Notes: a model not told the origin generated them from the letters alone. Shown: positions 148 through 11,073, counted from the first letter of the stretch. The stretch: DNA of 37,624 bases from Candidatus Desantisbacteria bacterium CG1_02_49_89 (GCA_001871075.1 MNUP01000059.1:1-37624); one strand, 5' to 3'. A program made the numbers and translations.

Positions 148-1452
148 ATGTACGAATTCGACGCGCCAGCTGTTTACGCTCACGAGTCCGTGATCGCGGA
201 TGCACGGTGCAGGGTGCGCATGGAAAAGGTTATTTCGGCGCTCACGCATCCCAGGGAACCGAAGGTATTCACAGACGAAAACATCCTCAGCCTGATCGGG
301 CAGGATAAATTTTTTTCCGGGTGCAACAGGGCGATGGGAACGCTTGAACAGATCCCCGATCCTGTTATCGTGTTCAACAAGTTCAAATTCAGCGATATTG
401 CCCGGGAACAACTGAAACCCCTGAAAGAAAAACTTCTAAAAATAACTGACGCGCAAAGGGCGCTTGCCCTGACAGGGGACGGCGCGTTTGACTGGGCATG
501 CTATAATCTTCCGGAAGACCCCGACCGCAACGATAAGGTCTGCCGCCCCTGCTGGAGGATACACTTCCAGGCAGGATGCCTGCACAAGTGCCATTACTGC
601 GGGTTCGGCGGAGTGCTTATAACAATGACGAACGCCGAGGATTATATTCTTCAGCTGGGCAGGCTCATGCAGGCCCATCCGTGGCAGGAAACATTCCTGC
701 TGGAAGACGACGCTGACGTGCTGTGCCTGGAGCCTGAATTAGACTGCACAGGCCCTATCATCGAGTTTTTCGGCACCCTTAAGGACCGCTACCTTATCCT
801 GCACACGAAAAGCTGGAACACGGACTGGATGTACGGGCTGAAGCACAACGGCAAAACCATTATTGTATGGAGCATCGCCGGCCCTGCCCAGAGCAGGGAC
901 ATAGAGCCGAAAACAGGCTTAACAGAACAGAGGATCGAGGCGGCAAGGAAGTGCCAGGACGCGGGCTACACTGTCCGTTACAAGTTCAAGCCGATAATCC
1001 CGGTTGAAGGATGGAGGGAAGAAGCTTCCGGGACGATCGAGCAGGTGTTCAAAAAAACAAAGCCTGATGTCATAAGCCTGTGCTGTTTTATGTGGATGGG
1101 CATAGACGACCTTAAAAAGAAGCTCGCGAAACACAGGATGGACCCCGTTTTTATAAAAGCCGCTGAGGATGCCAGGGAGGAAACAAAGAACACGACGAGC
1201 AAGCCATTCCCGGAATGGGTACGCGCAGAGATCTACGAGTATTATCTTAATGAGATCAGGAAATATAACCGCGAGATACCTGTCTCGCTTTCCACAGAGA
1301 CCTGGTCCATGTGGAGCAGGATAGGCAAAAAATTCGGGTTTACCGCCACTAACTACGTTTGCGGGTGCGGGCCCAACTCGATACCGAACCGCAAGATCCT
1401 TTTGGCCCATCCTTACACGCAGGCGAAGCGGAACGGATCCTGGATAAAATAA
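148..1452 (+). CDS. Spore-photoproduct-lyase-like radical SAM protein (first of tandem pair)
   Basis: This 434-residue protein has a radical SAM cluster motif CxxxCxxC at Cys144, Cys148 and Cys151, which should bind a [4Fe-4S] cluster and S-adenosylmethionine. After it comes a stretch closely resembling spore photoproduct lyase (SPL): KHNGKT, then WSI, then an EAA/AGY segment and PIIPVEGW. The position I align by eye with the catalytic hydrogen-donor Cys of SPL (CTSD) reads DDAD, so DNA photolesion repair is doubtful. The C-terminus has a CxCGP motif (VCGCGPNS) shared with the next gene and possibly an extra metal ligand. A CxxC (CRPC) precedes the cluster motif. The start ATG has AAAGG seven bases upstream. 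The next gene starts 13 bases after the stop, so the two are probably co-translated. Family assignment is good; the substrate is unknown. Confidence 0.85.
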   Translation: MYEFDAPAVYAHESVIADARCRVRMEKVISALTHPREPKVFTDENILSLIGQDKFFSGCNRAMGTLEQIPDPVIVFNKFKFSDIAREQLKPLKEKLLKITDAQRALALTGDGAFDWACYNLPEDPDRNDKVCRPCWRIHFQAGCLHKCHYCGFGGVLITMTNAEDYILQLGRLMQAHPWQETFLLEDDADVLCLEPELDCTGPIIEFFGTLKDRYLILHTKSWNTDWMYGLKHNGKTIIVWSIAGPAQSRDIEPKTGLTEQRIEAARKCQDAGYTVRYKFKPIIPVEGWREEASGTIEQVFKKTKPDVISLCCFMWMGIDDLKKKLAKHRMDPVFIKAAEDAREETKNTTSKPFPEWVRAEIYEYYLNEIRKYNREIPVSLSTETWSMWSRIGKKFGFTATNYVCGCGPNSIPNRKILLAHPYTQAKRNGSWIK

Positions 1453-1465
1453 AGGAGTGTTCGCG

Positions 1466-2791
1466 ATGTTCAGAAAACTAAGGCCTGAAAAAGTATACGT
1501 GACCGAGGACGTTTATTCCGATCCCGGAGCAGCGGCGTGCGTTGACCGGATAATGAGCGCGGTGGAGGGCGCGGAGGCGCAGCGCGTGTCTTATTCCGAG
1601 CTGAACGAGATCGCGCCGGCGCGCTGGAAAAATATCCCGGAGTGGGGAGCGCAAAAGGACCCGCGCGACCCTGACCTTGTCCTGACCACAGCTAAATACC
1701 CCGCCGAGAGCGAAAAAAAGGAATTCACGACCCGCTACCCGAACCTTGGGATCCGCGACATGTACGGCTTCAGCCCCACAAGGTGGCGGGCAGACGGCGA
1801 AGCTGACTGGAGGCGCAGCGCGAGGGGATGCGTGTGCCAGTCCGCCTGGCAGCTGCACGCCATTGATGGCTGCCCGTTCCGCTGCGCTTACTGCGGGCTG
1901 GGCGGCGTCAACAAGATCCTGGTCAACATGGAAGAATACGTAAAGCACCTTGACGGGGTCTGCGAGCTGGGCCCGGACCAGCGCCTTTACAAATGGGACA
2001 ACATGACCGACGTTTCATGCTTTGAGCCGGAATGGGGCGCGTCCAAACTGCTTGTCGAATACTTCGCGCGCAAACCCGGCAAGTACCTGGAGATCTACGC
2101 GGGCAAGAGCGACAACATCGATAACCTGCTCTCCCTGGACCACAGGGGCAAGACCATTATACAGTGGAGCGTGAGCGCACGCACCCAGAGCACGGTATTA
2201 GAGAAAGAAACGGCTCCGTGGGACAGGCGCGTTGAAGCCGCGGCAAGGTGCGGGGAAGCGGGATATATCGTCAGGTTCAGGTTCTCCCCGATCATTCCTG
2301 TGAAGAACTGGGAAGACGAGAACGCGGATTTGATAGACCTTATCTTCGAAAAAACGAAGCCGGACGTGATCTCGCTGTGCCCTTTCGGCTGGATGAGCTA
2401 TGAGGAAATGAAGTCCTGCATGGACATAGGCCTGCTTGACGCCCGGTTCGCGGCTGTAATGGAATCCGCTGTCCCCTTCCTTGGCGCGCGCGGCTTCACT
2501 TCAGGCGGCGGCCGCCCCATCCCCCATGACGCCAGGGCGTATATGCTGAAAGTCCTTATTGATGAGATCCGCAGGCACAGTAAAACGATCCCGGTCTCGC
2601 TGTGCCTTGAAACCCCGGAGATGTGGGCGCTGTTCGGCCGGGAGCTGGGAATGCCCGTAAACCCCGAAAAGAAAAGCTCCTATTACTGCAACTGCGGGCC
2701 GATGTGCACCCCGGAGAATCCGTTAAACAAGGGCGTGGAGCCGGGGCAGTCGTGGTACGGGCCTGACGGAACAAAGGTGCGGCTGCGCTGA
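1466..2791 (+). CDS. Spore-photoproduct-lyase-like radical SAM protein (second of tandem pair)
   Basis: This 441-residue paralogue of the preceding gene has radical SAM cysteines at 136, 140 and 143 (CPFRCAYC) followed by GLGG. Both proteins share DV.C.EPE, a GKTII.WS strand, an EAA..C..AGY segment, PIIPV..W, KTKPDVISLC, an IPVSL.ET segment and a C-terminal CxCGP (YCNCGPMC). The site aligned with the SPL catalytic Cys reads NMTD, so the Cys is absent here too. I chose the ATG at 1466 because AAAGGAG lies eight bases upstream; a GTG at 1457 falls inside that ribosome site. The short gap to the first gene suggests a two-subunit enzyme or two steps on a related substrate. That is inference. Confidence 0.85.
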   Translation: MFRKLRPEKVYVTEDVYSDPGAAACVDRIMSAVEGAEAQRVSYSELNEIAPARWKNIPEWGAQKDPRDPDLVLTTAKYPAESEKKEFTTRYPNLGIRDMYGFSPTRWRADGEADWRRSARGCVCQSAWQLHAIDGCPFRCAYCGLGGVNKILVNMEEYVKHLDGVCELGPDQRLYKWDNMTDVSCFEPEWGASKLLVEYFARKPGKYLEIYAGKSDNIDNLLSLDHRGKTIIQWSVSARTQSTVLEKETAPWDRRVEAAARCGEAGYIVRFRFSPIIPVKNWEDENADLIDLIFEKTKPDVISLCPFGWMSYEEMKSCMDIGLLDARFAAVMESAVPFLGARGFTSGGGRPIPHDARAYMLKVLIDEIRRHSKTIPVSLCLETPEMWALFGRELGMPVNPEKKSSYYCNCGPMCTPENPLNKGVEPGQSWYGPDGTKVRLR

Positions 2792-3004: not shown

Positions 3005-3985
3005 ATGCTGACTTCGAAGAAGGTGAAGGAATACGCGAAAAAATGCGGGGCTGACATAGCAGGCATTGCGTCGATGGACAGGTTCGAGGGCGCGCCCAAG
3101 CAGATGGACCCCCGCTATATTTTCCCAGACGCCAAGGCGATGATCGTGATGGGTTTCAGAATACCCAGGGGATGTTTCAGGGGAATAGAAGAAGGGACAT
3201 ATTTCGCGAACTACTGCTCGTTCGGCTACTATCACATAAACCTTGTGCGCGCAATGGACACGCTCAGGGACGTAACAATTTTCTTAGAGGACGAAGGATA
3301 CGAAGCAGTGCCTTACGACAATACGAGCGTAAGGCTGGGCTGCGACGCGGGAAGAGCGGTGTCCCCGGAAAAACCCAGGCCGGACGTGTTCGTGCACTTC
3401 CGCATAGCGGCTTTTGCGGCAGGCCTGGGAGAGATCGGGTACAGCAAGGTATTCCTCACGCCGGAATTCGGGCCGAGGCAGAGGTTCGCGCTGATACTTA
3501 CCGACGCGCCGCTTGAGCCAGACCCGCTTTTTAAGGGCGGCCTTTGCGACAGGTGCATGCAATGCGCGAAAGAATGCTCGGGAAACGCTATCAGCCGGAC
3601 AAAGACGGTAAAGATCAAAGTTGCCGGAAAAACGTGTGAATGGGGAGAACTCGATGAGGTGAAATGCGCCGGTGCATATGAGGGAGGGATAACCGAAACC
3701 AACCCTTTTCTTCCGGAGAATCTCAGGGAGGAGATCAATAGATTGCTTAAAGAGGCGCCGAAAGACGACTGGCAGGCGCAGGCAGCTTATTCGAGCAAGG
3801 TATGGAATTTCATACGGGACAAGGTCCCGTATAACCGCGCCGCGTGGGAATCATACCACCATCCCGCGCCCATTGAGGGCGCAAGAGGCTGCATGCGCGC
3901 GTGTATGATCCACCTGGAAGAACAGGGAAAGCTGAAAAACAAGTTCAAAGAGCCTTTCAGGCGGGGAAAGGCCTGGAAACTGTAA
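3005..3985 (+). CDS. QueG-like / reductive-dehalogenase-like 4Fe-4S protein
   Basis: The 326-residue product has a ferredoxin motif CxxCxxCxxxC at Cys181, 184, 187 and 191 (CDRCMQCAKEC). The preceding segment, GLGEIGYSKVFLTPEFGPR, is typical of the COG1600 epoxyqueuosine-reductase-like fold. True QueG has two such four-Cys motifs; here the second is missing and only isolated Cys pairs (211/221 and a C-terminal GCMRAC) remain. It is therefore probably not the tRNA enzyme but a relative using one [4Fe-4S] cluster, possibly with cobalamin. The ATG has AAAGGGAG a few bases upstream. It follows the radical SAM pair after a repeat-filled gap, so shared transcription is possible but unproven. Confidence 0.8.
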   Translation: MLTSKKVKEYAKKCGADIAGIASMDRFEGAPKQMDPRYIFPDAKAMIVMGFRIPRGCFRGIEEGTYFANYCSFGYYHINLVRAMDTLRDVTIFLEDEGYEAVPYDNTSVRLGCDAGRAVSPEKPRPDVFVHFRIAAFAAGLGEIGYSKVFLTPEFGPRQRFALILTDAPLEPDPLFKGGLCDRCMQCAKECSGNAISRTKTVKIKVAGKTCEWGELDEVKCAGAYEGGITETNPFLPENLREEINRLLKEAPKDDWQAQAAYSSKVWNFIRDKVPYNRAAWESYHHPAPIEGARGCMRACMIHLEEQGKLKNKFKEPFRRGKAWKL

Positions 3986-4425
3986 AACAGAATAAATACA
4001 TTGTAAATCTCAAATTGCAAATTGTAAATTGCAAAATTAAGAAATAACCACGGAGACACAGAGAAATACATTCAGCCACGGATGCACACAGATAAATAAC
4101 TTTTGGCTGTTGCTGACAACTCACAACTGACAACTGCCTATAGCAGCCACAGGTTAACACTGTCATAAAATTAACCACAGAGACACGGAGACACAGAGGA
4201 AAACTTTTTACAGGGATCTTCGAAAGAGATTTAAAAAGCTCAGCCACGGATAAATACTTTTTTGGCTTCAAACTCATGACAAATGACTAATGCCTGCCCG
4301 CCAATCTTACTGGGTGGGACAAATGACTGCCTTCAGCCACTGAGTTCACTGAATTCACTGAGAAATTTCCTTCAGCTAATGAGCAAATGAGCTATTGAGC
4401 GCATTTTATGATTCACGAGGTTATG
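3986..4425. repeat. Longest gene-free stretch: cluster of about nine different word satellites
   Basis: No gene is seen here. The stretch reads as successive blocks of degenerate short words: CAAATTG/TTGTAAATT (about 4001-4040), CACGGAGACACAGAG (4047-4066 and near 4180-4200), CACGGATGCACACAGATAAA (about 4077-4098), ACAACTCACAACTGACAACT (about 4116-4136), CACAGGTTAACACTG (about 4148-4163), GACAAATGACT (4270-4330), CACTGAGTTCACTGAATTCA (about 4338-4358) and AATGAGCAAATGAGC (about 4377-4392). The GACAAATGACT block is split by a GC-rich palindrome (CCTGCCCGCC to GGGTGGG, about 4291-4318). The weak ribosome site CGAGG of the next gene is at 4416-4420. Confidence 0.8.
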
Positions 4426-7239
4426 ATGTCAAAAAAGTTAACGAACGACGTTCGACGCATGACCCGCCCAGCAAACGTGGCGGGCAAGCTGTTCGACGTA
4501 ATTATCGCCGGCGGCGGTTTATGCGGGATAGGCGCCGCACTTGCATTAAAAAATAATCCCACTTTGAAAAAGGGGGAAAGAGGGGGATTTAATAAAATCC
4601 TTATCCTGGAGCGGCGGCTTTCACCCGGCTGGGAAGTCTGTTCCGCGCTCAGCACCGATCTTGGCGCGGACAATACATTCGTTACCTCAGTACTTAAAGA
4701 AAGGCTTACTTCTATGGGCGGGCTGAAAAACAACCGCGTTGACCCCCCGATGTTCGAGTTTCTGCTAAACGCCCTGCTTGAGGAAAAAAACATAGATATC
4801 CTGCTGTGCGCGCATCCGATGCAGGTCACCGTAAAAGGAGATCTTGTCACGGCAATTATCGCGGGGACCAAGAGCGGGGAGATGTCCTTCGGGGCGAAGA
4901 TCTTTATTGACGCCACAGAGGAAGCCCTGTTGTGGAAACAGACAGGCGTCCCTTTCACGGACAATGATCCTCCCCCTGCGGCAAGACAGGCAGTATTTTT
5001 CAATAACATCGAACAGGAAATAACCTCCCCTGTTCTCCCGGGAGATTTCGCAGAGGCAAAGAATATAGTTATCCGTCCTTCTGTCTGGCAGAAAGAAGCC
5101 TGCGCTGAATTTGATATTCCCTCAGGCTCTATTTCTTCATGCCGGCTCGCGACATTTTCAATAATCTCTTTCATACGCGAAAAAGTGCCGCAGCTTAAGG
5201 ACGCGATCGTGACGCACACGGGCTTTGAACCGCTGCCCATGGACGCGGTTTCCTGCCCGAACACCGGGGCGGAAAGCCACCCGTATTTCAGGAACCTTTT
5301 CGCGGCAGGCCTTTGGGCGGTCCCTGACACCAGGAAAAGGCAGAGATCCGCCACCCTTGCAGGCAGGATACAGATCGGGGAAAAAGCAGGCATGCTCACA
5401 TCAAATGTTCGCATAAAACCCGTAAAGCCTTCCGGCGCTGAACTCCTGTCAAAGCCCGCCACGGCTGAAGCGGATGTTGTGGTCGCGGGAGGCGGGACAG
5501 CGGGAGCTATCGCAGCCATAGCCGCGGCAAGGCAGAACGCGAACGTGATACTTATCGAAACTTCCACTGTGCTGGGAGGAATAGGAACAGGCGGGGGCAT
5601 CCATGGATACTGCGTAGGCGCGCCGGGCGGCCTGCAGGATGAAGTTGACGCGGCAGTAGAAAAGGTATCGCCTGTTTTCAGCGGCAAACACTCGGCGCAG
5701 GGTTTCCACCCGGAAGCGAAGAAATTCGCCCTCGAGCAGATGGCGCGCGACGCAGGCGTTCAAATAATATATTCATCCCTGGTTGTGGGAGTCTGCGAGA
5801 AAAAAGGCAGGCGGATAAAAAGAGTGATCGCGGCCACCCCGTCAGGCAGGACGGTATTCAGCGCGAAGGCGTTCGTGGACTGCACCGGGGACGCGGATAT
5901 CGCGGTGATGGCAGGCGCGCCGTTCACAATAGGCAGGGAATCCGACGAGGTGCCGCACTGCTACTCCCAGTCCGGGGGCCACCTGGACAAGAACGGGAAT
6001 ATGGAGATGATCAATTTTGACGCGGGCTGGGCAGACCCGTTTGACGCGTTTGACCTTACGGCTTCCAGGCGGAAAGGCCTGAAATGCCTCGAACAAAGAT
6101 TCCCGGCGCAGAACCGCCTGCTTTATATCGCTCCGATCCTCGGAGTGAGGCAGAGCAGGCAGATAGCCGGAGATTACAGGCTTACCCTCGCTGACGAGAT
6201 CCTGGCAAGAAGGTTTGAAGACTGCGTGGGGTTCATGAAAACGTTCTATGAGAACCACGCCAATGACATAGAGAACCAGAGCGATGAAGGAGTGCTTTGG
6301 ATGTGGGTACTCGGTAATTTCTTTAAACCCATAGGGTGCGAGATCCCTTACAGGTGCATGCTGCCGAAAAACGTTGAGGGATTGCTGGTAGCGTGCAGGG
6401 CTGTGTCCGTGACAATGGACGCGCACTACGGGTTTAGGATGATGCGCGACCTGCAAAGGATCGGCGAAGCAGCGGGGATCGCGGCCGCTATCTCTGCCAG
6501 GCTTGGCAAAACCCCGCGGCAGCTTGACGTGAAGCTTGTGCAGGAACAGCTTAAAAAGACCGGGGCGCTGGACGAAAAATTCCGCCCTGTCCCCCTGATC
6601 CCCGAGAACTTCAGGAACGACACGTCGAGGCTTGCCGAAACAGGCGAGCCGAAAGACATAATCTACCCGCTCGCAATATCAGGCAAAAGCGCCGTACCCG
6701 CCCTTCTAAAGATCCTTGAAACCGCTAAGCCCGAAAACAAATTCCTGCCTGCTGTGGCGCTGGCGATGCTTAAAAGGAAAGAGGCGGTCCGGGAACTGGT
6801 AAAGAACGTGGTTGAGCGCAATCCTGCCAGGGTCCAGGAGAACGGGGCTGCGCCCAGATGGAAATCAGCGATCGTAATGCTCGGCAGGGCGGGAAGCCCG
6901 GAAGCCCTGCCTGCCCTTCTCGGCGTGCTTGAAGACAAGAATGCGGATGCTGACGCTCTTATCGCCGCATTGCGCGCGATGGGCAGGATCAAGAACAGGA
7001 AAGCCGTTCCTATGATCCTGAAATTCCTGAAGCGAAAAGATATCCCGCAAATACGCAAGTTCCAGGTCTCCTGCGCGGGTGTTGCGCCTGTTGAGGAAGA
7101 TGTTCTCTGGCAGATAGAACTTGCGGCTGCGGAAGCTCTTGCCGCACTGGGAAAGCCCCAGCCCAGTATAATAAGGAAGTACCTGGACCATCCGCGGTCC
7201 TACGTAAGAAGGTACGCTGCTAAAATAAAAGGGACTTAG
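4426..7239 (+). CDS. Double FAD-dependent oxidoreductase fused to C-terminal HEAT-type repeats
   Basis: The product, about 937 residues, has two flavin-binding halves. The first Rossmann motif is VIIAGGGLCGIGAALAL near residue 25. The second is VVVAGGGTAGAIAA near residue 352, followed by LGGIGTGGGIHGY, typical of the FAD-dependent oxidoreductase family found beside glycan-degradation genes in Planctomycetes and Lentisphaerae. From about residue 740 to the end it has helical repeats (SAVPALLKIL, EALPALLGVLED, KAVPMILKFL) like HEAT/PBS-lyase units, probably a docking scaffold. The chosen start has CGAGG five bases upstream; an upstream ATG at 4408 is possible. Two repeat-derived segments lie in frame: residues about 6-24, and a hairpin cassette between the first GGG motif and the next beta strand. 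The electron acceptor and substrate are unknown. Confidence 0.85.
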   Translation: MSKKLTNDVRRMTRPANVAGKLFDVIIAGGGLCGIGAALALKNNPTLKKGERGGFNKILILERRLSPGWEVCSALSTDLGADNTFVTSVLKERLTSMGGLKNNRVDPPMFEFLLNALLEEKNIDILLCAHPMQVTVKGDLVTAIIAGTKSGEMSFGAKIFIDATEEALLWKQTGVPFTDNDPPPAARQAVFFNNIEQEITSPVLPGDFAEAKNIVIRPSVWQKEACAEFDIPSGSISSCRLATFSIISFIREKVPQLKDAIVTHTGFEPLPMDAVSCPNTGAESHPYFRNLFAAGLWAVPDTRKRQRSATLAGRIQIGEKAGMLTSNVRIKPVKPSGAELLSKPATAEADVVVAGGGTAGAIAAIAAARQNANVILIETSTVLGGIGTGGGIHGYCVGAPGGLQDEVDAAVEKVSPVFSGKHSAQGFHPEAKKFALEQMARDAGVQIIYSSLVVGVCEKKGRRIKRVIAATPSGRTVFSAKAFVDCTGDADIAVMAGAPFTIGRESDEVPHCYSQSGGHLDKNGNMEMINFDAGWADPFDAFDLTASRRKGLKCLEQRFPAQNRLLYIAPILGVRQSRQIAGDYRLTLADEILARRFEDCVGFMKTFYENHANDIENQSDEGVLWMWVLGNFFKPIGCEIPYRCMLPKNVEGLLVACRAVSVTMDAHYGFRMMRDLQRIGEAAGIAAAISARLGKTPRQLDVKLVQEQLKKTGALDEKFRPVPLIPENFRNDTSRLAETGEPKDIIYPLAISGKSAVPALLKILETAKPENKFLPAVALAMLKRKEAVRELVKNVVERNPARVQENGAAPRWKSAIVMLGRAGSPEALPALLGVLEDKNADADALIAALRAMGRIKNRKAVPMILKFLKRKDIPQIRKFQVSCAGVAPVEEDVLWQIELAAAEALAALGKPQPSIIRKYLDHPRSYVRRYAAKIKGT
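4441..4497. repeat. In-frame ACGACGTTCGACG satellite with nested hairpin in FAD oxidoreductase N-terminus
   Basis: Words ACGAACGACGTTCGACG and GTTCGACG flank a CCCGCC (4463-4468) / GGCGGG (4479-4484) hairpin. The whole block is translated as the residues just before the first Rossmann strand. It resembles the ACGATG/ACGTCG satellites in gaps at 14040-14075 and 19160-19200. Confidence 0.6.
4551..4600. repeat. In-frame hairpin cassette within the first FAD-binding domain
   Basis: An AATCCC..CTTTGAAAAAGGGGG..AGGGGGATTT type sequence is translated as NNPTLKKGERGGFNK. It sits exactly between the first alpha helix and second beta strand of the Rossmann fold, a tolerant loop. A related cassette (AATCCTCCCCCGTTAAAGGG) lies in the gap at 7337-7368. 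Confidence 0.65.
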
Positions 7240-7380: not shown

Positions 7381-8346
7381 ATGATAAGTAAAGAACTTGT
7401 AAAGCAGGCGATATATTTTAAGGGGCCGGAAAGGGTGCCGATAAGGTTCGCCCAGAATCCTGACGCTTCCGACATTGTGGGGCTGGGATTTAATCAGCCT
7501 AAAGGCTGGACTCCATCTAAAGAAAATGAGGACGAATGGCATTGCGTGTGGGATAACCTGATCGGCACAGGCCTGGGCCAGGTAAAAGGCCATCCTATAG
7601 ACAGATGGGAAAGATTGGAAGATTACAAGATTCCAAACCCTCACGACCAAACAAGATTCGAAGACCTGACGGCCGCTATCGATAGGTACAAAGGCAAATA
7701 CCTGACAGCAGGGATCGGGATATCCGGGTTCAACAAGCTCACGTTCCTGAGGGGTTTCGAGAACCTGCTGGCTGACATCTACACAGAGCCGGAAAAATTC
7801 AATAAACTTGCCGATATGGTATTTGATTTCGAAACAGGCCTGATCAAAGAATACGCGAAATTCCAAATTGACGCGATATGGTTCGGGGATGACTGGGGAA
7901 CCGAAAGGTCGCTTATAATAAATCCCGTGAAATGGCGGGAAGTATTCAAGCCCAGGTATAAAAAGCAGTTTGATCTCTGCCACAAACAGGGAATGGACGT
8001 AATATTCCATTCCTGCGGGTTCATCTGGGACATAATCCCTGATTTCATTGAGATCGGGGTAAACGTCCTGAACTGCGAACAGCCTATGATATTCGGGGTG
8101 GACAAGCTCGCGAAGGCATTCGGCGGGAAGGTTTGCTTCCATACCAACGTGGACGGGCAGAGAATGCTGCCAACAGCGACCCCAGAAGAAATTGTTACCG
8201 AAGCAAGGCACCTGATCGAAGCGTTCAGGCCGTATAGCGGCGGGTTTATCGCGTACGGGGACGCAACAGCAGACCACGGGTACGTGCCGAAGGAGAACGT
8301 CGCGGCGATGTCTAAGGCATTCGTGGAATTCGGCAAGCTTAAATAA
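7381..8346 (+). CDS. Uroporphyrinogen decarboxylase-family (URO-D-like) methyltransferase
   Basis: The 321-residue TIM-barrel protein belongs to the URO-D superfamily, which includes HemE and the corrinoid methyltransferases MtaA, MtbA and CmuA. The HSCG motif (His210-Cys212) is the zinc or substrate site of the methyltransferase branch, and FGDDWG and an N-terminal GPERVPI are other family signatures. HemE-specific arginine patterns are not evident, so heme synthesis is unlikely. No corrinoid protein is visible nearby. The ATG is preceded by AAGGAAG. It stands directly before a GH38 alpha-mannosidase-like gene; the same pairing recurs at 30987-34624. Its likely job is methyl transfer or demethylation in glycan or small-molecule metabolism, which is inference. 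Confidence 0.85.
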   Translation: MISKELVKQAIYFKGPERVPIRFAQNPDASDIVGLGFNQPKGWTPSKENEDEWHCVWDNLIGTGLGQVKGHPIDRWERLEDYKIPNPHDQTRFEDLTAAIDRYKGKYLTAGIGISGFNKLTFLRGFENLLADIYTEPEKFNKLADMVFDFETGLIKEYAKFQIDAIWFGDDWGTERSLIINPVKWREVFKPRYKKQFDLCHKQGMDVIFHSCGFIWDIIPDFIEIGVNVLNCEQPMIFGVDKLAKAFGGKVCFHTNVDGQRMLPTATPEEIVTEARHLIEAFRPYSGGFIAYGDATADHGYVPKENVAAMSKAFVEFGKLK

Positions 8347-8360
8347 AGATACATTTCAAA

Positions 8361-8482
8361 AGTCAAATTGCAAATTGCAAAATTTAAATTGACAAAAAAC
8401 TTACAGTGTAATATATAATTTTCTATATTTCTATATTTTAAAAATTTGAAATTTACAATTTACAATTTGAAATTTACAATTT
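8361..8482. repeat. CAAATTG / ATTTACAATTTG satellite
   Basis: CAAATTGCAAATTGCAAAATT (split here, about 8365-8385) and AATTTACAATTTACAATTTG (about 8450-8470) are the same word family on opposite strands, flanking an AT-rich block. The right part is open in the frame of the following mannosidase, creating a false 16-residue N-terminal extension. The word family recurs at 4001-4040 and inside the gene at 34858-36927. Confidence 0.75.
8389..8419 (+). promoter_or_regulatory. Sigma-70-type promoter before the first GH38 gene
   Basis: TTGACA at 8389-8394 is followed after 17 bases by TATATA, or after 19 bases by TATAAT (8414-8419). This is close to the housekeeping consensus and 75 bases upstream of the mannosidase start, so the gene may be transcribed on its own. 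The flanking DNA is AT-rich satellite, which raises the chance of a coincidental match. Confidence 0.45.
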
Positions 8483-8493
8483 TAGGAGTATAC

Positions 8494-10998
8494 ATGGTTA
8501 AGCAAATATATGTCGTGCCCTACTGCCATCCTGACTGGGCGTGGACATTTAACAGAGAATGGCATGAGAAAAGATACGTGCTGGTAGCCGAGGAAGCCCT
8601 TGACGCGATAAAAAAGCATCCCCAGTTCCGCTGGTACATGGACCCTTATGTCACCCAGGCAGAAACGATATTAAGGCGCAGGCCGCAATTATATAAGGAA
8701 CTTCGCAAAAGGATAGCCGAGGGGAAGATCGCGGTATGCGGCTCTTTCACAAACCTGCGCCCCACCATGACCGGAGAGGAAACCCAGGTGCGGGACCTGC
8801 AATACGGAAGAAAAATATATAAGGAATTGTTTCCTGAAGCGGACTTATCCGTTTACGCTGGCACTGTTGACGTGTCCGTGGGCCACCCGCAGGTGCCCCA
8901 GCTGCTTGCGCTTGCCGGGTACAAGTATTTGCGTTTCTGGAGGCCGTACGTAGCACTTACAAGGAAAAGAGTTCCGCTTGAATTCTACTGGAAAGGATTT
9001 GACGGCTCAAAGATCCTGTGCTCAAGAGGAACATACGGCGGGCTGTGCTCAGCTGAAAACCTGGCTGAAGAACTTAACAACATGGCTGAAAGGGATAATG
9101 ACCTCCGGCCGGTAAGTATCGCCTGGGTAAGCCAGGGCACAGATGACTGCAGGCCTTTAAGAACACCTTATTCCGACAAACCCCTGCCGCTTTTGGAGCT
9201 CATGGAGGAATTGAACAGCAAGGAAGGCGTGAAGGTAAATTTCGCCACCCCGCCGCAGTATTTCAGGGAGATAGAAAAGCACATGTCAGAGATACCTGAG
9301 GTAAACGGCTCGCTTGACCCCTGCGACGTGTGCTACAACGTCGGGTGGGGAGGAGCGAACGGGCTTTTCGCCCTCCGCCAGGAGAATGAGATAAATCTTA
9401 CAACGCTTGAAACGTGGAACACTATCAGAGACATTAACAACATTAAAAACATTAGAGACATTGGGGACATTGAAGACATTGAAGACATGTGGAAAACGCA
9501 CCTTCTTTCCTGCGCCCACGCCACCCAGTGGCTTTTCGAGGACGATTTCAACAAGCTTTACAATAAAGCTTTAAACGTGAAACTCGAAACCTCTGAAACA
9601 ATTGAAGCAGTCTTATCTTCTCTTGCCCGGCTTATCCGCCTGCCTGAAACCGCGCAGGCTGTTGTTTTCAACTCCCTGCCGTTTGAAAGGGAGGAATGCG
9701 TCAGGATGCTTCTCACCTTCCCGGATTCCTGCGCCGAATTCTCGCTTGCGGATGCAAAAGGCAGGGATATTCCCTTCCAGGTGCTGGATAAGAACGAGAA
9801 TTCCTCAAGATCATATGAATTTGACGTTGCGGCAAAAGTGAAGATCCCGGCCTGCGGCTATAACGCTGTTTCCGCGGCCAAGCCTGGCCTGAAACCCGCC
9901 ATGCGGGGAGAAGGGGCAACGGTTGAGTTCAACGGGAGCGATCCGGTATGTATCAAGGCAGGCGGGAAGGAATACAGAGCGGAAAGTGATAGCAGTTTCG
10001 CGGACCTGAAACTGTACCGGGTGGACACGGCAAAAGGCGCCCTGCACGCCGGGCCAATAACTTCCGTTGAGCGGGTGAAATGGGGCATCGCAAAAACTAC
10101 CGCGGATGGGGACCTTTTTTCGGTTTACAGGTCAGAAGGTTCTGCGGGGCCGCACCCCGTTACAAGAGAGATCACGGTTTATAAGGATAAACCGGTCATT
10201 GACATCAACGTTGAGGTAAAATGGGGCGCTGAAGACGGATTCCTGGCGCTTGAGTTCCCGCTCCTGTTCAAAGGGAAGATCTTCGGGGACACGCCTTTTG
10301 CTGTTGAAGAGAAGGATATTGAAAAAGAGCCGTTCCTCGCAGAGGGCGAGAGCTGCTGGGAAAATATTGAAAGGCAGAGGAAAGGCCTGTTTTACGCGAA
10401 GTCCTTCATAAGCCAGAGTGACGGCGAAGGAAGCGTTTCATACCTGAATTATGACGCGTCGCATTACTATTTTCTGCCTGGCGGGGACAGTATCGGAAAT
10501 ATTCTCATAAACAGCGTGACAAAGCTTGAGGGATGGGAAAGGTTCGTGAACAAGGCAATGCGGGCAGAAGGAACGCACAGGTTCGCGTCCCGCCTTATTT
10601 TCCATAAAGGTGACTGGAGGTCCGCGCACATCGCCCGGGTCTCACAGGCGTTTGCAAGGAAACCCGGAATTATAGCAGCGGAAGGATCTACAAGGTGCCC
10701 GCCGCAGGAACCGGCGGGTTCCTTCCTGTCGCTTGAACCTTCAAACCTTATTATGACCGGATTTTACAGGGAAGGGAAAAACTTCATACTGCGGTTTTAC
10801 GAAACTGGGGGGAGAAAAACAAAAGCAAGGATAAAGCTTCCTTTTACTGCAAAGAAGGCTGTGAAAATTGATTTGCAGGGAAAAATTATTACCATTCTTA
10901 AACATGGTAAAACTTTAAAGCTTGAAGTAAGGCCCTGGGAAATAGTTTCTTTGTCATTGCGAGGTCGCCCTGGGCGGCCGCGGCAATCTGAACGCTAG
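8494..10998 (+). CDS. Divergent GH38 alpha-mannosidase-like protein
   Basis: The 834-residue protein is related to GH38 alpha-mannosidases. Predicted zinc ligands are retained: His12 and Asp14 in CHPDWAW, and the nucleophile Asp126 in TVDVSVGHPQVPQ, spaced nine residues from Pro as in normal GH38 enzymes. The usual WxxDxFG context is changed, and the first His of HxHxD is Tyr10, so the substrate may differ from mannosides. No signal peptide is seen. I chose the ATG at 8494 because AGGAG lies five bases upstream; the longer frame back to 8446 is satellite. Residues about 312-332 are a seven-unit 9-bp minisatellite, and the last 15 or so residues and the stop codon come from an inserted inverted-repeat element. 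Confidence 0.8.
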   Translation: MVKQIYVVPYCHPDWAWTFNREWHEKRYVLVAEEALDAIKKHPQFRWYMDPYVTQAETILRRRPQLYKELRKRIAEGKIAVCGSFTNLRPTMTGEETQVRDLQYGRKIYKELFPEADLSVYAGTVDVSVGHPQVPQLLALAGYKYLRFWRPYVALTRKRVPLEFYWKGFDGSKILCSRGTYGGLCSAENLAEELNNMAERDNDLRPVSIAWVSQGTDDCRPLRTPYSDKPLPLLELMEELNSKEGVKVNFATPPQYFREIEKHMSEIPEVNGSLDPCDVCYNVGWGGANGLFALRQENEINLTTLETWNTIRDINNIKNIRDIGDIEDIEDMWKTHLLSCAHATQWLFEDDFNKLYNKALNVKLETSETIEAVLSSLARLIRLPETAQAVVFNSLPFEREECVRMLLTFPDSCAEFSLADAKGRDIPFQVLDKNENSSRSYEFDVAAKVKIPACGYNAVSAAKPGLKPAMRGEGATVEFNGSDPVCIKAGGKEYRAESDSSFADLKLYRVDTAKGALHAGPITSVERVKWGIAKTTADGDLFSVYRSEGSAGPHPVTREITVYKDKPVIDINVEVKWGAEDGFLALEFPLLFKGKIFGDTPFAVEEKDIEKEPFLAEGESCWENIERQRKGLFYAKSFISQSDGEGSVSYLNYDASHYYFLPGGDSIGNILINSVTKLEGWERFVNKAMRAEGTHRFASRLIFHKGDWRSAHIARVSQAFARKPGIIAAEGSTRCPPQEPAGSFLSLEPSNLIMTGFYREGKNFILRFYETGGRKTKARIKLPFTAKKAVKIDLQGKIITILKHGKTLKLEVRPWEIVSLSLRGRPGRPRQSER
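9427..9489. repeat. In-frame minisatellite, 7 x 9 bp, within GH38-like gene
   Basis: Seven consecutive NNN-RAC-ATT units, the last ending in ATG, are translated as RDI-NNI-KNI-RDI-GDI-EDI-EDM. The unit is exactly three codons, so copy number can change without a frameshift. It lies in a loop between the catalytic domain segments. Confidence 0.9.
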
Positions 10999-11044: not shown

Positions 11045-11073
11045 AAAAAGGGGGGCATTCAGCCCTCCTTTTT
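11045..11073. terminator. Convergent rho-independent terminator
   Basis: AAAAAGGGGGGC and GCCCTCCTTTTT form a 12-bp stem with one G-U pair and a five-base loop (ATTCA), with further T residues after it. It lies where the + strand cluster (ending 10998) meets the - strand cluster (last stop at 11072-11074). On the opposite strand the hairpin is also followed by a T run, with one A-C mismatch, so it may work in both directions. Confidence 0.85.

Follow-up and report, generated by a model that had tools for sequence, protein, structure and literature searches.

A tandem pair of spore photoproduct lyase-related radical SAM proteins in Candidatus Desantisbacteria and the multi-copy family to which they belong

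The gene pair and its relation to spore photoproduct lyase

Two genes for radical SAM proteins related to spore photoproduct lyase (SPL), referred to here as P1 and P2, lie head to tail on the + strand of the window, that is, the whole stretch of 37,624 nucleotides analysed from Candidatus Desantisbacteria bacterium CG1_02_49_89. The P1 gene occupies positions 148..1452 and encodes 434 amino acids. The open reading frame of P2 extends from a GTG at position 1457 (1457..2791), and an alternative start, ATG 1466, is preceded by a good Shine-Dalgarno sequence (AAGGAG), so that P2 most likely occupies positions 1466..2791, leaving the gap of 13 bases that an earlier note on this DNA had described. 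The two proteins are 32-38% identical to each other, and their genes are apparently co-transcribed. Because the window is one complete contig (of 150 in an assembly of 2.48 Mb), the region upstream of P1 is out of view.

Four genes follow P2 on the same strand. They encode a QueG/reductive-dehalogenase-like Fe-S protein (3005..3985; 47 bits for TIGR02486 and 24 bits for TIGR00276, both below the cutoff), an FAD-dependent oxidoreductase (4408..7239; Pfam FAD_oxidored and HEAT_2), a URO-D/MtaA-like methyltransferase-family protein (7381..8346; Pfam URO-D, with scores under the MtaA cutoffs of NCBIfam) and a GH38-type glycosidase (8446..10998; Pfam Glyco_hydro_38N); from position 11072 onward the opposite strand is used. 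The oxidoreductase and its C-terminal HEAT repeats form a single protein of 943 amino acids. The FAD/HEAT, URO-D and GH38 genes are tied to P1 and P2 by position in the window's genome alone. A short reverse-transcriptase stretch lies near the right end of the contig (37000-37425, - strand).

Both proteins carry the SPL core motifs that the earlier note had read from them, namely CxxxCxxC, (K/D)H(N/R)GKT, AGY and PIIPV..W, together with a C-terminal CxCGP. The cluster motif, by which radical SAM proteins are recognized, is formed by C144/C148/C151 in P1 and by C139/C143/C146 in P2 (numbered from GTG 1457), and was present in 105/105 full-length family members; the C-terminal motif reads C405-G-C407-GP in P1 and C411-N-C413-GP in P2. 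Scores for the Pfam SPL domain (PF20903, gathering cutoff 27 bits) were 57.9 bits for P1 and 58.3 bits for P2, placing both in the SPL-domain superfamily, and SPL structures were the sole sequence relatives of P1 and P2 in the PDB at E < 0.01. An AF2 model of P1 (pLDDT 84.4, pTM 0.88) likewise has the SPL fold: its best Foldseek matches were the SPL structures 4fhg, 4rh0 and 4k9r (E 4e-15, TM 0.69-0.71 on target length), and the next fold was weaker in E by many orders of magnitude. For the equivalog model 'spore photoproduct lyase' (TIGR04070, cutoff 400 bits), P1 and P2 scored 59.2 and 74.3 bits, far below the cutoff, and a true clostridial SPL (L043) scored 532.8 bits. No curated NCBIfam model takes in P1/P2-type proteins above its cutoff, no SPASM or other peptide-maturase model of Pfam or NCBIfam matched them at E 0.1, and the radical SAM mobile pair model TIGR04470 failed to match them even at that threshold. 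In the window's whole genome, searches found neither a true SPL nor a Spo0A C-terminal domain, each of which was detected in B. subtilis as a positive control; the earlier note had seen no sign of sporulation in the window.

Donor cysteine, tyrosine relay and additional conserved cysteines

Among characterized proteins, SPL/SplB (TIGR04070, PF20903; PDB 4FHC-4FHG, 4K9R, 4RH0) is the closest structural match to P1. The two share the radical SAM fold, CxxxCxxC with Tyr96 (Y96 in 105/105 members), the KHNGKT strand and the E/R/AGY/W core. They differ in the residues of the SPL radical relay. When we aligned the proteins to the SPL chains in the PDB, the position of the donor cysteine C140 was occupied by Asp in P1 (D187) and by Asn in P2, as the earlier note had proposed, and no full-length member had Cys there (0/105). 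At the position of Tyr98 (Y98 of the Gt enzyme, Y99 of the Bs enzyme), a loss that the note had not mentioned, both proteins have Gly and no member has Tyr (0/105); Y99 of B. subtilis SPL has been described as the partner in its radical relay (PMC5368176). The note had further pointed to a conserved Cys three or four residues after the donor position (DVLC/DVSC). This residue in fact lies six residues after it and is Cys in 35/105 members, the rest having mainly A, T, G or I, and we therefore rejected it as a conserved donor.

The absence of C140 is not in itself diagnostic against SPL, because the bona fide clostridial enzyme L043 lacks this cysteine as well (EGSATSD there) and keeps the Cys of its CKPS motif, and the SPL of C. 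acetobutylicum has been described as using C74, across the pocket, instead of C140 (PMC5368176). In the same loop as this alternative donor site the family has a near-invariant cysteine, likewise absent from the earlier account (C132 in P1, C127 in P2; Cys in 104/105 members). The engineered PDB variant 4rh0 (C140A/S76C) provides a reference for its position: phmmer paired P1 C132 with S76C of 4rh0 through a two-residue gap, and in the ungapped profile alignment C132 stands two residues after the C74(Ca)/S76(Gt) position. The sole member without C132 (L058) has its Cys two residues upstream, exactly at the ungapped C74 position. The family thus keeps, at most two residues from the alternative donor site, a near-invariant Cys that may serve as an H-atom donor or as a metal ligand.

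In contrast to SPL, the family also has a stretch of ~55 residues at the N-terminus, an invariant EPE at positions 195-197 and an invariant R277 (each 105/105), and a C-terminal CxC (P1 C405 and C407; 104/104) where the SPL-type C-terminus is lacking. C132 and the CxC are the only extra cysteines conserved throughout, and are thus the additional ligands by which an auxiliary cluster would be recognized. Since they are essentially invariant, a second Fe-S or metal site built from C132 and the CxC is plausible, although the AF2 model of P1 is poor in this C-terminal region (pLDDT about 58). The C-terminal CxC is found again in a second set of SPL-like proteins (L007, L008, L017, L023 and L056), in all of which the upstream Cys is kept, in agreement with a shared metal site.

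This second group, whose C-terminal motif is CNC in L007, L008, L023 and L056 (with L017 alongside), differs from P1 and P2 in having GK/GE..D(G/P)L in place of EPE, and forms a branch of its own. One of its members (L008:1465-3672, - strand) is a protein of 735 amino acids in which a radical SAM domain (65-229) is fused to an SPL-like domain (398-639) ahead of the C-terminal CNC. The closest broad relatives are the widespread 'GTGE..DSL' SPL-like proteins of non-spore-formers (among them L003, L036 and L042), which aligned with the P1/P2 family in HHalign at E 1e-50 over 252 columns. Like P1 and P2, these lack C140 (mostly Glu there), and the majority have retained the cysteine corresponding to C132; unlike them, they comprise about 360 amino acids, have neither CxC nor EPE, and mostly have Gly or Ala at R277. 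Protein B of the radical SAM mobile pair (TIGR04470), which NCBIfam lists as a 'pair' family and which resembles SPL distantly, weakly matched L043 and L007. The P1/P2 family is distinct among SPL-derived radical SAM enzymes. Our literature search, judged by titles and abstracts, found no paper on this SPL-like family.

Distribution of the family and its gene neighbourhoods

We built a tree (quick search with SH-aLRT supports) from the 105 full-length members together with SPL and SPL-like proteins. The branch dividing the members from the SPL and SPL-like proteins received an SH-aLRT support of 98. Within the family, P1 and P2 fell into different, non-sister clades. P1 is 60% identical to the product of a solitary Armatimonadota gene and P2 70% identical to that of a solitary Victivallales gene, and the first orthologues found were all solitary (P1-type in Armatimonadota and WS1 MAGs, P2-type in a Victivallales MAG). 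A more distant member occurs in an Asgard archaeal (Sigynarchaeota) MAG directly behind a sulfatase gene (L035:10001-11242), possibly as a result of interdomain transfer or of misbinning.

The family is multi-copy, with at least 9 matches in one Victivallales genome, at least 5 in a WS1 genome and at least 4 in an Armatimonadota genome, fragments included; these numbers are lower bounds, the genomes being mostly fragmented MAGs and the number of candidates taken from each genome having an upper limit. With a presence threshold of E 1e-40, it was found in 13/198 genomes from the class to which the Victivallales MAG belongs, 7/388 sampled genomes from that MAG's phylum, 32/251 genomes from the phylum of the Armatimonadota MAG, and 4/386 diverse genomes, one of which (G933, 145 bits) has an SPL-like protein only. 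The window's phylum is represented in the collection by two genomes, the second of which lacks the family. A protein-pattern scan of genome contigs with P1 alone returned no match and the same scan with A1 returned matches; viral contigs scanned with A1 gave none.

The earlier note had supposed a two-component enzyme, to be checked by constant co-occurrence of the two genes in other genomes, and had taken separate occurrence in most genomes as evidence against it. The two genes are in fact mostly separate. Of the family-bearing genomes, 24 have P1-clade genes and 7 have P2-clade genes (a further call, G002, was SPL-like only); 19 genomes had P1 without P2, and 2 had P2 without P1. Both clades occurred together in 5 genomes and were adjacent in 1, that of the window; in the other four, the P1-type and P2-type genes lie on different contigs. 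We accordingly rejected the pair as a general functional unit.

Most of the ~107 neighbourhoods compared had no gene set in common. Of three associations that stand out, the first is with QueG-like genes, which lie within <1 kb and on the same strand beside 7/135 members, where 0.135 would be predicted for about 310 copies spread over 280 Mb (Poisson 1.5e-10); neither this association nor that with DegT described below is phylogenetically independent. The seven members so flanked come from four clades and from both main phyla, which makes the QueG-like protein the best candidate for a partner of P1 and P2. Proteins of the QueG/RdhA-C-terminal-like type also exist in multiple copies, with about 310 across 47 genomes, as many as 15 in a single genome and four in tandem in L279, and their own neighbourhoods likewise have no common gene set. 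An AF2 model of the window's QueG-like protein had a pLDDT of 42 and was set aside. In G402, genes of the RYDV and EAL clades are convergent and 105 bases apart (L184:2756-5476), and are preceded by two QueG-like genes and a gene for a protein of 251 amino acids without a Pfam match, which recurs beside the family in L215.

Genes of sugar-related types recur in part of the family. The arrangement DegT - GFO/IDH - cupin - family gene, all on the same strand, was found in one clade in G484, where the family gene lies at L235:8122-9447, and in G462, with partial forms in G417 (GFO/IDH - cupin), G609 (DegT - GFO/IDH) and G193 (GFO/IDH). Across the five loci, the GFO/IDH proteins are mutually 58-79% identical. 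In G496 and G605, QYDN-clade genes have DegT directly upstream. In the P1 clade, GFO/IDH genes adjoin or lie within two genes of 8/20 members, on the opposite strand, and in five of these eight cases they are 71-89% identical. GFO/IDH accounted for 7/81 operonic neighbours and was absent from the families seen at least twice among 76 control genes. The P1 and P2 clades were not found in the DegT operon. Two further candidate associations were rejected: sulfatases, considered in view of sulfatase maturation, were at background (4/81 operonic neighbours, 3/76 controls), and homologues of the FAD/HEAT and URO-D genes were not enriched beside the family and are not general partners.

Proposed function and alternative explanations

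These results point, with chances that we regard as about even, to P1 and P2 being paralogues that diverged long ago within a single SPL-derived family of radical SAM enzymes, act on small-molecule substrates and do not form an obligate two-subunit enzyme. The family probably acts on small sugar-, aminosugar- or cyclitol-like substrates, not in DNA repair. BtrN and AprD4 are radical SAM enzymes of aminocyclitol and aminosugar pathways whose genes lie beside those of DegT aminotransferases and GFO/IDH-type dehydrogenases. The likeness to them is a functional analogy only, as they belong to other radical SAM subfamilies and AprD4 is a weak fold match to P1; and a sugar substrate for P1 and P2 themselves is an extrapolation from sister clades, because their own clades were not found in the DegT operon. 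In the mechanism we propose, each protein would cleave SAM reductively at the CxxxCxxC cluster, and a second Fe-S or metal site of C132, C405 and C407 would bind the substrate or take an electron. SAM would be consumed and not regenerated, since the Cys/Tyr relay of SPL is missing. Different clades would act on different substrates, and the QueG-like Fe-S protein of the window operon would belong to the same pathway as P1 and P2.

We also considered that P1 and P2 might repair DNA lesions in the manner of SPL, with C132/C127, near the clostridial C74, replacing C140 as H-atom donor. The earlier note had argued from the missing catalytic Cys to a new substrate and against a repair lyase. Its argument does not hold by itself, in view of L043 (533 bits for TIGR04070, CKPS Cys kept, no C140) and of the reported C74 of the C. 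acetobutylicum enzyme (PMC5368176); the pairing of C132 with the engineered Cys of 4rh0 and the exactly placed Cys of L058 also speak for such a donor. Its conclusion against a repair lyase nevertheless probably stands, because the C140 Cys and Tyr98 are both absent, the genome has no Spo0A domain, and the family is multi-copy. The scores far under the SPL equivalog cutoff, the offset of C132 by two residues in the ungapped alignment, the exchange of the SPL-type C-terminus for CxC, and neighbours that are metabolic and not of repair further weigh against SPL-type repair, which we consider distinctly unlikely. An obligate heterodimeric radical enzyme of P1 and P2 appears very improbable: the two genes are adjacent and apparently co-transcribed, two family genes converge in G402, and the protein L008 fuses a radical SAM domain to an SPL-like one, but the clades of P1 and P2 are not each other's closest relatives in the tree and, across genomes, their genes are mostly found apart or on different contigs.

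Many radical SAM enzymes that modify peptides typically have an additional Fe-S site, and the putative second site of P1 and P2 would fit maturases of peptides or proteins, for example of adjoining sulfatases or QueG-like Fe-S proteins. Sulfatases do flank the family in L035, L139, L237 and L238, and QueG-like genes adjoin it significantly often; however, sulfatases are equally common near controls, no SPASM or other maturase model matches P1 or P2, and a short ORF for a precursor was not noticed between the genes, so we regard this explanation as unlikely. Use of corrinoids is frequent in the families to which URO-D/MtaA-like and QueG-like proteins belong, and the gene order in the window, together with the significant QueG-like adjacency, could place P1 and P2 at a radical SAM step of a corrinoid or C1 pathway in which the operon's QueG-like, FAD and URO-D proteins also take part. 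Against this, other members of the family showed no enrichment of URO-D or FAD homologues beside them and the QueG-like genes are many, with unrelated surroundings; such a pathway seems to us improbable, somewhat more so than SPL-type repair.

A broader and more tentative proposal, which we judge possible but doubtful, is that the SPL-type scaffold, related to DNA repair, diversified in uncultured genomes (Lentisphaerae-, Armatimonadota/WS1- and Asgard-type) into a family of many paralogues, catabolic or biosynthetic, which acquired an auxiliary Fe-S site from C132 and the CxC and acts on sugars, aminosugars or cyclitols in at least 8 substrate clades. SPL is a radical SAM enzyme noted for a Cys/Tyr relay within the protein itself. 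With this relay lost, the fold kept and invariant cysteines gained, the large sister family described here could be used to test how the substrates of radical SAM enzymes change, and how SAM recycling gives way to SAM consumption. The family also carries a warning for annotation, as its proteins match the Pfam 'spore photoproduct lyase' domain above the cutoff, yet the label 'DNA repair' is probably wrong for them.
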